Source: Polaromonas glacialis
Lineage (GTDB): Bacteria; Pseudomonadota; Gammaproteobacteria; Burkholderiales; Burkholderiaceae_C
Direction of reading: 5' to 3'
NCBI RefSeq assembly: GCF_000709345.1
Contig: NZ_KL448323.1
Span: forward strand, 3,066,516-3,130,515
Length of the DNA stretch: 64,000 nucleotides
How positions within the stretch are numbered: the stretch's first letter is position 1; the number at the start of each line of letters is the position of its first letter. The notes beneath the pieces were generated by a model. It ran no database searches. It saw only the letters and a list, made by a program, of their open reading frames with translations, and had not been told where the DNA came from. Position numbers and translations under genes: made by a program. Below, in pieces: positions 23,794 through 32,745 of the stretch.

Positions 23794-23830
23794 AAAAAAA
23801 ATCCCGGCGACCTGATGGCCCGCCGGGATT
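23794..23830 (-). terminator. Intrinsic terminator upstream of hemJ
   Basis: Perfect 10-bp GC-rich stem, 11-base loop and a run of eight T on the minus strand, ending about 50 bases before the hemJ start codon. No protein gene ends here. Confidence 0.85.
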
Positions 23831-23935
23831 GAAACGCCTTTTTGCTGTCACACGCAAAGGCCCCGCTCAGGGAGGAAAAGCGGGATGCAATCGCCATACA
23901 CTGGTAACCGCACGTTTTCATTCTAGTCCCGGGCC
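23794..23935 (-). ncRNA. Candidate small RNA or hemJ attenuator
   Basis: No protein is recognisable between hemJ and hemB. On the minus strand there are three hairpins in order: CCCGCT-TTTCCTCCCTG-AGCGGG (23862-23884), whose loop carries the anti-Shine-Dalgarno string CCTCC; a small TTTGC/GCAAA hairpin (about 23839-23857); and a perfect 10-bp terminator AATCCCGGCG/CGCCGGGATT (23800-23830) followed by eight T. The 5' end is not fixed; 23935 is a guess. Either a free small RNA or an attenuated hemJ leader would fit. Confidence 0.45.
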
Positions 23936-30206: not shown

Positions 30207-30509
30207 GTGGCCCCCACGCTTGTCGCTTCGCGTACTGCGCTGCCCCCCAAGGGGGCCGCTGCGCCTGCGGACCGGCGAAGCCGGTTCCGCGGCCCCTGCT
30301 GGGGGGAGAGTTTCCCCACGCTTGTCGCTTCGCGTACTGCGCTGCCCCCCGAGGGGGCTGCTGCGCCTGCGGCCTGGCAAAGCCAGTTCCGCGGCCCCTG
30401 CTGGGGGAGAGTTTCCCCGCGCTTGTCGCTTCGCGTACTGCGCTGCCCCCCGAGGGGGCTGCTGCGCCTGCGGCCTGGCAAAGCCAGTTCCGCGGCCCCT
30501 GCTGGCAGG
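30207..30509 (+). repeat. Three tandem units of the stop-codon-associated GC repeat (family 2)
   Basis: Units of about 101-103 bp begin at 30211, 30314 and 30415. Each reads CCCCACGCTTGTCGCTTCGC (third copy CCCCGCGC), GCGTACTGCGCTGCCCCC, a C/G hairpin around GAGGGGGC, and ends in GGTTCCGCGGCCCCTGCTGG (or AGTTCC). It starts 5 bases after the SDR stop in the same sense and fills the gap up to marC. Confidence 0.93.
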
Positions 30510-30561
30510 AAGTCTGCGCTCGTTGCTTGTCCTAGGTTCCCAATTTAAAAAGAGTTGATTC

Positions 30562-31194
30562 GTGGACTTCAAACCTTTAGTGACGCTGCTGGCCATCGTC
30601 AACCCACTGGCCATCGTGCCGTTCTTCATCCACTACACGCAGGGCTTTTCCAGGCCGCAGCGGCAGCGCACGGTGGCGGTGGCCTCGTTCAGCGCCTTCG
30701 TGGTGATTGCCGTCAGCGCCCTGCTGGGCCTGCAGATCCTGGAATTCTTCGGCATCTCGCTGGCCAGTTTCCAGGTCGGCGGCGGCCTGTTGCTGTTGAT
30801 CAGCGCGATGAACATGCTCAATGCCCAGCCGGCCGAGGCCAAGCCGCTGACCAACGAGTATGAAGACGGCGCCGCAAAAGCCGCCCAGGGCGCCAGCATC
30901 GCGGTGGTGCCGCTGACGATTCCGCTGCTGACCGGGCCGGCCACCATGTCCACAGTGGTGATTTATGCCGAAAAAGCCAAGACCTTCCTGCAGCTGGGCA
31001 CGCTGGTCGGCTACGGCCTGGTGATTGGCCTGGCAACCGCGCTGTGCTTTTCGCTGGCCGAGCCGATTTCGCGGGTGCTGGGCAAGACCGGCATCAATGT
31101 CATGACGCGGCTGATGGGCTTGATATTGGCCGCGCTGGCGGTCGAGGTGATGGCCGACGGTCTGGGCAAGCTGTTTCCTATCCTGCGGCATTGA
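30562..31194 (+). CDS. MarC-family inner membrane protein
   Basis: 210 residues from GTG 30562, with AAAGAG upstream. Six membrane helices; family signatures LLAIVNPLAIVPFFI at the N-terminus, SFQVGGGLLLLISAMNML, and VVPLTIPLLTGPATMSTVVI. MarC-type (UPF0056) proteins are multipass proteins of unresolved function, no longer believed to be drug pumps. Stand-alone gene between two repeat blocks. Confidence 0.92.
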   Translation: MDFKPLVTLLAIVNPLAIVPFFIHYTQGFSRPQRQRTVAVASFSAFVVIAVSALLGLQILEFFGISLASFQVGGGLLLLISAMNMLNAQPAEAKPLTNEYEDGAAKAAQGASIAVVPLTIPLLTGPATMSTVVIYAEKAKTFLQLGTLVGYGLVIGLATALCFSLAEPISRVLGKTGINVMTRLMGLILAALAVEVMADGLGKLFPILRH

Positions 31195-31272: not shown

Positions 31273-31533
31273 GTGGTTGATTTTTGCTGGGTTGGCTTTT
31301 CGGGGTTGGGCTGGCCGGGGGTTGCCCGGCGGCAACTCACTTTTCTTTACTTCGCCAAAGAAAAGTAAGCAAAAGAAAGGCGACCCGGCTGTCCGGGTCC
31401 CTTCGCTTCGCTACGGGCAACCTGTGATGACCCGGGGAAGCGGGGGTCGAGCTCGAACTCGCCTGCGGCTCAGACAATCGCTCGCCCTGATCCCGCTTCC
31501 CCGGGTCATCACAGGCCCAGCCAGAACGGGACT
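31273..31533 (+). repeat. Family 3 element, arm 1
   Basis: Contains GGCTGGCCGGGGGTTGCCCG, the hairpin ACTTTTCTTT/AAAGAAAAGT (31339-31348 with 31357-31366), GGCGACCCGGCTGTCCGGG, and a perfect 24-bp inverted repeat, 31421-31444 with 31492-31515, around a 47-base loop. It ends GGCCCAGCCAGAACGGGA. Confidence 0.88.
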
Positions 31534-31572
31534 TGCGGGAGCGGATTCGGGGCCGGATTGCGGCATTTATGC

Positions 31573-31630
31573 ATAAAAAGTGCCTCTTTCGCTTGCTGCG
31601 ACTGCGAAAGCAGCTATTAAATTTGTAGCA
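31573..31630. repeat. Dispersed AT-dyad/GC repeat (family 1)
   Basis: AAAAAGTGCCTCTTTCGCTT ... CGAAAGCAGCTATTAAATTT and GTAGC, between the two family 3 arms. Confidence 0.65.
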
Positions 31631-31654
31631 TTCGGTATTTAAAACCGGCGCTGG

Positions 31655-31726
31655 GGCTGTTTGGCTGTTTGGCTGTTTGGCTGTTTGGCTGTTTGGCTGT
31701 TTGGCTGTTTGGCTGTTTGGCTGTTT
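31655..31726 (+). repeat. Nine perfect tandem copies of GGCTGTTT
   Basis: 72 bases of exact 8-base units, followed by GGATTTTT. Exact copies suggest recent slippage and a likely variable copy number. Confidence 0.95.
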
Positions 31727-31744
31727 GGATTTTTATCCCCGCCA

Positions 31745-32000
31745 CTCCCGTTCTGGCTGGGCCTGTGATGCCTGAGAAAAATGGGATCAGGGCCGCGCGC
31801 TGTTTGAGCGCAACGCAGTGAAGCGAGTTTGCGCGGACCCCCATTTTTCTCAGGCAGCGCAGGTTGCCCGAAGCGAAGCGCAGGGACCCAGACAGCCGGG
31901 TCGCCTTTCTTTTGCTTACTTTTCTTTGGCGAAGCAAAGAAAAGTGAGTTGCTGCCGGGCAACCCCCGGCCAGCCAATCCGCGAGAAGCCAACCCAGCAA
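31745..32000 (-). repeat. Family 3 element, arm 2 (inverted relative to arm 1)
   Basis: Reverse-complement homolog of arm 1: TCCCGTTCTGGCTGGGCC at the inner end, hairpin 31918-31927 with 31936-31945, and GGCAACCCCCGGCCAGCC at the outer end. The central stem is 31769-31785 with 31840-31856, 17 bp perfect, of different sequence from that of arm 1. Confidence 0.88.
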
Positions 32001-32037
32001 GCACCAACAGCTACCGTTCCAATAGCAAGCAATTCAA

Positions 32038-32745
32038 TCAACGCGCCGGCATCTGCCGCAGCCACGCATCCAGCTCGTCAATCGCCGCATCGGTGGCCGC
32101 CGTCAGGGCGCGCACGCCACCGGCCGCATCGGCGCTGGTCGCCGGCCGCTGCACCGACAAGCTGCGCTGCGCGACCAGCCGTTCCCCGGCGGGCGTGATC
32201 TCGACCAGCGTGGCATGCAGGCGAAGCAGGCCGACGCTGGCATCGGGCGCGCTGAACAGCTGGCTGAATTCTTCCAGTTCCAGCCGCAGCATCGGCAAAT
32301 TGGTGTTCTGGCTGCGGTTCAGCGCCACGCCTTCACGCGCATTGAGCACCACGCGTTGCTGGCTCAGGCGATCGCGCATGCGCTGGCGCACCAGCTGCGC
32401 CGGCGGCATGGTCCAGCGCGCCTGCGAATAGGGGCGCAGCTGCTGGGCGTCAACATAGCCCAGCCGGTAGAGCACCGCCTGGTTTTCCAGCGCGCCGCCC
32501 GAGGTGGCGATGTCGGCAATCGCCAGCGGCGACAAGGCGGGCACCGGGGGCGATGCCAGGGCCTGCGTGGACAGCTCGCCCGGCCCGAAGTCGTAGGTCG
32601 TGGCGCGGGTCGGCTTGTCGATCACTGAGCACCCGGTGGCGAGCGCCAGCACGCTTATCAAGCAAAAAACCCGCCTTGCGCAATGCTGGCGGGCGCTAGT
32701 AGCTATTGAATTAATAGCATAAAAAGGAAGCTTGAAAGCCATCAT
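32038..32745 (-). CDS. ABC-type transport auxiliary lipoprotein (PqiC/MCE-associated)
   Basis: 235 residues as read from ATG 32745. A lipoprotein signal RVFCLISVLALATGC is at 25-39 (Cys39), followed by SVIDKPTRATTYDFGPGEL; ABC-type auxiliary lipoprotein features LAIADIATSGGALENQAVLYRL, PLMRL-like central strands (PMLRLELEEFSQLF) and a helical C-terminus. Probably the outer-membrane-side lipoprotein of the MCE transporter encoded upstream (4-base overlap with the MCE gene). The first 24 or so residues, before the signal, are encoded by a family 1 repeat. Confidence 0.87.
   Translation of the reverse strand: MMAFKLPFYAINSIATSARQHCARRVFCLISVLALATGCSVIDKPTRATTYDFGPGELSTQALASPPVPALSPLAIADIATSGGALENQAVLYRLGYVDAQQLRPYSQARWTMPPAQLVRQRMRDRLSQQRVVLNAREGVALNRSQNTNLPMLRLELEEFSQLFSAPDASVGLLRLHATLVEITPAGERLVAQRSLSVQRPATSADAAGGVRALTAATDAAIDELDAWLRQMPAR
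32669..32720. repeat. Dispersed AT-dyad/GC repeat (family 1) inside the lipoprotein reading frame
   Basis: CCTTGCGCAATGCTGGCGGG, CGCTAGTAGC and TATTGAATTAATAGCATAAA. It encodes the residues ahead of the lipoprotein signal. Confidence 0.75.

Follow-up and report, generated by a model that had tools for sequence, protein, structure and literature searches.

In an intergenic gap of Polaromonas glacialis, two inverted stretches had been noticed whose central stems differ in sequence while still being complementary to their own partner strands. This raises the question whether a folded structure is under selection at this locus and, if so, which strand folds and whether it does so as RNA or as single-stranded DNA (ssDNA). 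The stretch of DNA that was analyzed, called the window in the following, comprises 64,000 nucleotides, and coordinates refer to it unless another sequence is named.

A composite repeat at the marC locus

The two stretches, described in the original prediction as two inverted elements, are the two arms of a single, non-coding composite repeat of approximately 730 bp. Their inverted arrangement was correctly recognized (the outer 173 nt of the arms, 31276–31448 and 31836–32008, are 87% complementary), their separateness was not. The composite sits in the intergenic gap between marC on the left (30562–31194, plus strand, Pfam MarC) and a convergent gene for an ABC-transport lipoprotein on the right (32038–32745, minus strand, Pfam ABC_trans_aux). 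The complete arm 1, from its outer end to its spacer end (31276–31535, outward sense on the minus strand), and arm 2 (31738–32008, outward sense on the plus strand) are matched by a covariance model at positions 3097894–3098046 and 3098261–3098420 of their own contig, respectively. Both arms enclose an unstranded spacer (31536–31737), in which the 8-nt unit GGCTGTTT is repeated in tandem at about 31655–31734. Short tandem runs resembling GGCTGTTT were by eye also seen in some other spacers of the same genome.

Both arms contain three hairpins, A, B, and C, plus a long central stem. In arm 1, hairpin A (31319–31338, plus strand) is followed inward by ACTTTTCTTT and is predicted to be terminator-like for transcription entering from the left, whereas hairpin B (31336–31369, unstranded, ACTTTTCTTT...AAAGAAAAGT) has a pyrimidine run in both reading directions. 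Hairpin C (31382–31399, minus strand) carries a T-run on the outward strand and is predicted to be terminator-like for transcription leaving the element. The parts that follow inward, all on the minus strand, are the small hairpin of a three-way junction (31399–31417, CCC...GGG), which covaries in other genera (C-G is replaced by U-A or G-C on both sides), the two covarying halves of the variable stem (31421–31444 and 31492–31515, 24 of 24 positions complementary), and between these halves a loop region (31445–31491) with an inner variable stem and the conserved motifs GATCAGGG, TGTCTGAG, and GCGAGTT. A conserved inner tail (31516–31533) completes the arm; in the consensus fold, base pairing between CTGGG of this tail and CCCAG/CCCGG of hairpin C forms a closing stem, P0. 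Arm 2 has the corresponding parts on its plus strand, namely the halves of the variable stem (31762–31785 and 31840–31863, 22 of 24 positions complementary), the small hairpin of the three-way junction (31867–31885, placed by consensus fold and covariation), and hairpin C (31885–31902), after which GCCTTTCTTT follows outward. Hairpin B of this arm (31915–31948, unstranded) was located by inverted-repeat comparison, and its hairpin A (31946–31965, minus strand) is predicted to be terminator-like for transcription entering from the right.

Reading of the sequence confirmed that the two 19-mers quoted from the central stems differ at nine positions, eight of which fall in positions paired in both stems. 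The additional claim that each stem pairs fully holds for arm 1; in arm 2, only 18 of the 19 positions pair. The ninth differing position is an A in arm 1 and a C in arm 2, where it faces a non-partner.

Some further features of the neighborhood were observed. A small inverted motif of the type AGCTATT...AATAGC lies near gene ends at 31613–31630 and 32698–32720, and a similar one was seen by eye in the related locus lacking the element (L151) that is described below. Between two plus-strand genes, at positions 30207–30535, a GC-rich unit of about 107 bp occurs three times in tandem.

Distribution of the repeat in Polaromonas and beyond

In its own genome the arm matches 19 stretches, counting itself and pieces, 12 of which form six inverted pairs with a distance of 140–220 bp. 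Three own-genome arms (L030, L032, and L033) are interrupted by an insertion sequence at nearly one place, between hairpins B and C, and the transposase in the L033 copy belongs to the IS30 family (NCBIfam). Apart from these IS30 insertions into arms, no transposase-bearing relative was recognized among the copies of this genome.

A search of a collection of named genomes with a 33-nt pattern yielded 23 stretches, all of them from Polaromonas. With a covariance model derived from 43 arms (152 positions, 46 pairs), matches were obtained in 58 of 87 genomes of the genus, in 56 of 200 genomes of the family (46 of 141 genera) and in 30 of 250 genomes of the order (21 of 121 genera), and 24 of these 30 genomes belong to 13 families other than that of the window. 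Copy numbers from these searches are lower bounds, as at most 35, 15, and 12 candidates per genome were scored for genus, family, and order, respectively. Rfam 15 contains no family that matches the element at or above its gathering score; all hits of permissive scans, run on the element itself and on six loci (one of Polaromonas G082 and five of other genera), fell below these thresholds. The sole Rfam match above the gathering score in the whole window is anti-hemB (RF02837) at 23794–23885 on the minus strand.

In one set of loci, all 34 with two arms (29 from other genera, five from Polaromonas G082) show the order minus/plus with the sense of the model pointing outward, and among the order-search loci with arms at most 1 kb apart this order was found seven times and plus/minus twice. 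The two plus/minus cases, in which the arms face each other, are L406 and L407, from two genomes of one other family. Two further loci, L397 and L398, have arms 1.7–2.3 kb apart with genes in between. A cargo shared by these distant arms was considered and discarded, since one locus encodes two proteins without NCBIfam match and the other a LysR-type regulator; among the open reading frames listed for both loci neither a transposase nor a common gene was recognized.

The stems covary

The original prediction had proposed selection on a folded structure and a covariation analysis of the genomic copies. Out of 116 extracted stretches, 77 distinct arms had ends that met the stem anchors; most of the others belong, judged by eye, to a second subfamily (type II) and were treated separately. 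The 77 arms include 38 distinct left 13-mers, and their central stem pairs at 1665 of 1848 positions, compared to 1395 ± 14 after right halves had been swapped between arms (maximum 1446 in 2000 shuffles). For stem positions 8–16 alone, 600 of 693 are paired versus 393 ± 11 in the shuffles. In the Polaromonas alignment A2, 98.2% of the cells pair and 166 cells are changed on both sides (50 ± 6 after shuffling). Alignment A8, which holds 95 distinct arms of other genera in the family, has 750 both-side-changed cells versus 196 ± 12 (slid controls 113–171), and alignment A9, with 34 arms from other families (including three reverse hits that overlap better ones), has 317 versus 87 ± 7 (slid controls 51–69). 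A8 and A9 were fitted to the covariance model, which favors the model, whereas A2 was not fitted. None of 500 shuffles reached any of the five measures used, and the slid controls were far lower. One stem pair of A8 is represented by G-C in 34 arms, C-G in 22, A-U in 21, U-A in 12, G-U in two, and U-G in one, with no unpaired cell, and in type II arms of Polaromonas both sides are changed in 16 of 33 pairs. In other genera, the closing stem P0 (CTGGG with CCCAG), whose partners are about 130 nt apart across the junction, is represented by each of the four Watson-Crick pairs, which supports the three-way junction. Covariation and mismatch statistics were calculated irrespective of kinship, and the copies do not represent independent events. 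Both-side changes exceed the shuffled controls in Polaromonas, in other genera of the family, and in other families, which supports the proposed selection on a folded structure. The covariation shows a folded single strand; taken alone, it does not separate RNA from ssDNA.

Mismatches point to one strand

Many stems are imperfect, and their mismatches can be used to ask which strand is selected. If both strands counted equally, G-kind mismatches (G·T, G·A, G·G) should be as frequent as C-kind mismatches (A·C, C·T, C·C) on either strand. The direction of each arm was set by the conserved loops and flanks and never by the mismatches, scoring was symmetric, and counts were confined to the variable stem. 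On the outward strand, i.e., reading outward from the spacer, G-kind mismatches prevail over C-kind mismatches by 257:28 in all groups combined (176:25 in unique contexts). The ratios, given as raw counts followed by unique contexts, are 105:11 and 61:9 for Polaromonas type I, 14:2 and 7:2 for type II, 33:1 and 25:1 for further genomes (a set drawn from the best 38 rows of alignment A6, minus arms already counted), 7:0 and 3:0 for Polaromonas G082, 70:3 and 52:3 for other genera of the family, and 7:4 and 7:3 for arms of such genera from the order search. For other families (34 rows less the three overlapping reverse hits) the bias is weaker, with 21:7 in both counts (p = 0.013). At least eight aligned stem positions were required, which left 77 of 82 arms for type I, 38 of 60 for type II, 23 of 23 for further genomes, 10 of 10 for G082, 85 of 96 for other genera, 9 of 10 for the order search, and 30 of 31 for other families. 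The restriction to the variable stem was chosen after a first, unrestricted count (G·T versus A·C in unique contexts, with a conserved mismatched base included) had been seen, in which type I alone was biased (51:16), with 29:38 for type II and 21:17 for arms from the family search.

This bias is independent of how the flanking genes are oriented. It amounts to 31:4 for arms in the same sense as the neighboring gene, 33:1 for the opposite sense, 71:7 for convergent neighbors, and 93:5 where the direction was unknown; the set of other genera used in this comparison held 10 Polaromonas G082 arms among its 106. Hairpin A, which was identified in 80 of 291 arms after five arms with N had been dropped, leans to the inward strand (20 outward versus 42 inward in unique contexts, p = 0.007). 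For hairpin B, a raw outward excess was found in Polaromonas (155:21), with no clear strand bias in unique contexts (18:10, 14:9, and 9:7). When the three hairpins had earlier been tested in a fixed register, the signs were mixed. A bias of mismatches toward one strand indicates that one single strand is under selection, rather than a cruciform or the product of gene conversion. The results thus show that what is selected is one strand in single-stranded form.

Genomic location, occupied sites, and empty sites

The element is located between genes, at the 3′ ends of genes. Both neighbors were called for 69 of 101 loci, using a simple codon-based score that had been trained on the window, and were convergent in 32 cases, tandem in 36, and divergent in one, compared to nine convergent, 38 tandem, and 15 divergent cases among 62 element-free gaps. 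In a related genome (G024) the corresponding marC locus (L151) has a gap of 107 bp without the element. At this one pair of occupied and empty sites, where the left junction is indistinct, no target duplication was recognized by eye.

The gap between urtD and urtE (named according to NCBIfam in this genome) contains arms in eight of 11 Polaromonas genomes for which the flank was found (13 were searched), with mostly different stems, and lacks them in the other three. Among the urtE loci of 30 family genomes, that of the window included, the covariance model matched within the urtD–urtE gap in three. In G222, G246, and G190 arms lie just upstream of urtE by coordinates, as determined for the urtE side only. 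This site was thus filled repeatedly, within and across genera, with no match to the model in most of the genomes examined. In one genome whose urtD–urtE gap lacks the element (G001, locus L302), a short stretch resembling the outer ends was seen by eye around GGCCGG, and judged from its sequence it looks as if it were the scar of a palindrome-mediated deletion.

A link to a RAYT-like partner gene, suggested originally, found no support. Genes of the Y1-transposase type occur in 84 of 87 genomes of the genus, mostly as one copy, compared to 58 of 87 for the element. The only Y1 gene of the own genome, at 891–1598 of L358 on the minus strand, encodes a REP-associated tyrosine transposase (NCBIfam), and the 2.8 kb around it contain no match to the covariance model of the element. 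A dedicated transposase was not found for the element.

RNA or single-stranded DNA

In RNA folding, every strand of both arms was more stable than all 200 shuffles, with z-scores of −8.8 and −5.4 for the outward and −4.8 for each of the inward strands. Directly outward of hairpin C the fraction of T in the first 12 nt is 0.70 in 102 Polaromonas arms and 0.65 in a set of 97 arms, and hairpin A is associated with a T-run on its inward side. In total, the element contains four sites with a GC-rich hairpin and a T-run, in both directions, which is weak evidence alone (shuffles gave a mean of 2.2 with a standard deviation of 1.5). The T-runs at hairpins C and A and the switch of the strand bias at hairpin A count for RNA. 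Against this reading counts that the bias is independent of gene direction, which is not what simple read-through predicts. Sigma-70-like promoters upstream of the outward arms or in the spacer were found in none of 202 cases at a match of 9/12 or better (base shuffles average 3.7), so that an outward RNA must come from read-through. Furthermore, G·A is strongly preferred over C·T (35:5 in unique interior contexts); these two mismatches are separated by DNA energies and not by RNA nearest-neighbor energies, which counts for DNA. An efficient terminator between urtD and urtE, which lie on one strand, would be costly, and this counts against a function as terminator. Taken together, RNA is ranked above ssDNA by a small margin.

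Discussion

The explanation we favor, and to which we give about an even chance, is a dispersed two-way terminator or insulator that acts at the RNA level, spreads as a unit, and carries covarying, outward-reading folds. Each arm comprises, on its outward strand, a folded module of the closing stem P0, the long hairpin with the changeable stem, and the small hairpin, these three helices together forming the three-way junction. Outside of this module a two-way terminator would be located, with hairpin C and its T-run terminating transcription that leaves the element, hairpin A and its T-run terminating transcription that enters it, and hairpin B supplying a T-run in both directions. The stems would drift, since point changes may be accepted provided that the outward strand retains its fold, with G·U (or G·T) and G·A as tolerated intermediate steps of stem change. 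The copies would spread as a unit with the help of an enzyme.

The main alternative, folding of the outward strand as ssDNA, appears rather less likely. In this case a recombinase or transposase that is strand-specific and acts in trans would use the strand as its substrate, as known for REP hairpins and RAYTs or for attC sites and integrases, and folding would be selected during copying and not within the host. The mismatch classes follow the order of stability in DNA (G·G, G·T, and G·A above C·T, A·C, and C·C), and a strand bias unrelated to gene direction, the lack of promoter hits upstream of the arms, inverted pairs as in BIMEs, and dispersed copies with empty sites and a recurrent presence, in several genera, at urtD–urtE or immediately before urtE are all in line with such a substrate. 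In contrast, mismatches in hairpin A favor the other strand of the arm, the sole common Y1-type gene occurs irrespective of the element and not beside it in this genome, and the one occupied/empty pair inspected by eye revealed no target duplication.

Among known repeats, REP/BIMEs and MITEs are probably the nearest kinds, and by analogy the element may be described as BIME- or MITE-like with terminator-like parts. Like REP/BIMEs it is intergenic, dispersed, and non-coding and forms inverted pairs of imperfect palindromes, and REPs have been reported to preserve their palindromes despite sequence change (PMC2817692). A REP unit, however, is described as a palindrome of 20–40 bp (PMC3733652), whereas each arm of the element spans about 250 nt and comprises several helices as well as a three-way junction, and neither the flanks of the own rayt gene nor the counts across the genus link the element to RAYT genes. 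The inverted intergenic pairing of REP/BIMEs is thus present, their unit size and RAYT association are not. Like MITEs, the element is non-autonomous and intergenic, with inverted ends and a strong predicted transcript fold; it differs in that its arms make up most of its length, that its stems covary, and that no parent transposase or target duplication was recognized. A MITE reported for Polaromonas sp. JS666 is cited in a review (PMC10969869) and was set beside the element by description only, not by sequence. The Beta-proteobacterial repeat element BRE (Hot et al. 2011) is likewise an intergenic repeat of Betaproteobacteria, with most copies in Polaromonas sp. JS666 according to the table of that paper (PMC3110155), but it is described as 75–91 bp long and often arranged in tandem without gap (PMC3110155), in contrast to an inverted pair of approximately 250-nt arms, a distinction that again rests on the description. 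Judged by eye, the tandem repeat at 30207–30535 is closer to the description of BRE than the inverted element is. With bidirectional intrinsic terminators the element shares GC-rich hairpins with T-runs both ways and the frequent position between convergent genes; unlike these, it is duplicated and dispersed and has an additional large covarying module, and termination is predicted. In the open-licence literature BRE and the citation of the JS666 MITE were the only related repeats found, with no description of a twin folded module.

An ordinary BIME- or MITE-like repeat, whose hairpins serve the stability or termination of mRNA 3′ ends and which is special in nothing but its age, is a doubtful explanation. 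The intergenic location at gene 3′ ends, the inverted pairs, the MITE mentioned for Polaromonas (PMC10969869), and the preserved palindromes of varying REPs (PMC2817692) would be expected of it. Arms of this length with a covarying three-way junction do not resemble a 20–40 bp palindrome (PMC3733652), and no parent insertion sequence or target duplication was recognized. It is very improbable that the composite encodes a divergent pair of small RNAs, each transcribed from its own promoter in the spacer. In both arms the outward fold precedes a terminator-like hairpin with a T-run, which would suit such RNAs, yet promoter-like sites were rarer than in shuffled sequence and a composite of another genus (L216) has a spacer of 18 bp. 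That stems are kept alike by template switching, gene conversion, or cruciform processing without any selection on folding, the copying alternative of the original prediction, is hardly credible even though palindromes are prone to such events and the G001 site resembles a deletion scar by eye, given the many imperfect stems with mismatches mostly of the stable kind on one strand, the tolerated G·T intermediates, and the covariation of P0 across the junction.

In a wider reading, which we consider somewhat less likely than not, the repeat would represent a so far unrecognized, order-wide class of mobile non-coding elements that consist of divergent twin modules of about 150 nt, have the outward fold as their most conserved property, spread without a protein of their own, and let their stems drift. 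If the fold acts as RNA, the element would be a mobile two-way terminator or attenuator in which P0 competes against terminator C; if it acts as ssDNA, a new strand-specific recombinase acting in trans would be implied. Open reading frames that look spurious are listed across both arms, and recognizing the repeat would help annotation in this respect. In bacteria, dispersed repeats are commonly regarded as simple palindromes. Here, the many copies across many genera amount to a natural mutational scan of a single fold, and the strand bias makes the question of RNA or ssDNA testable for a whole class of intergenic repeats.
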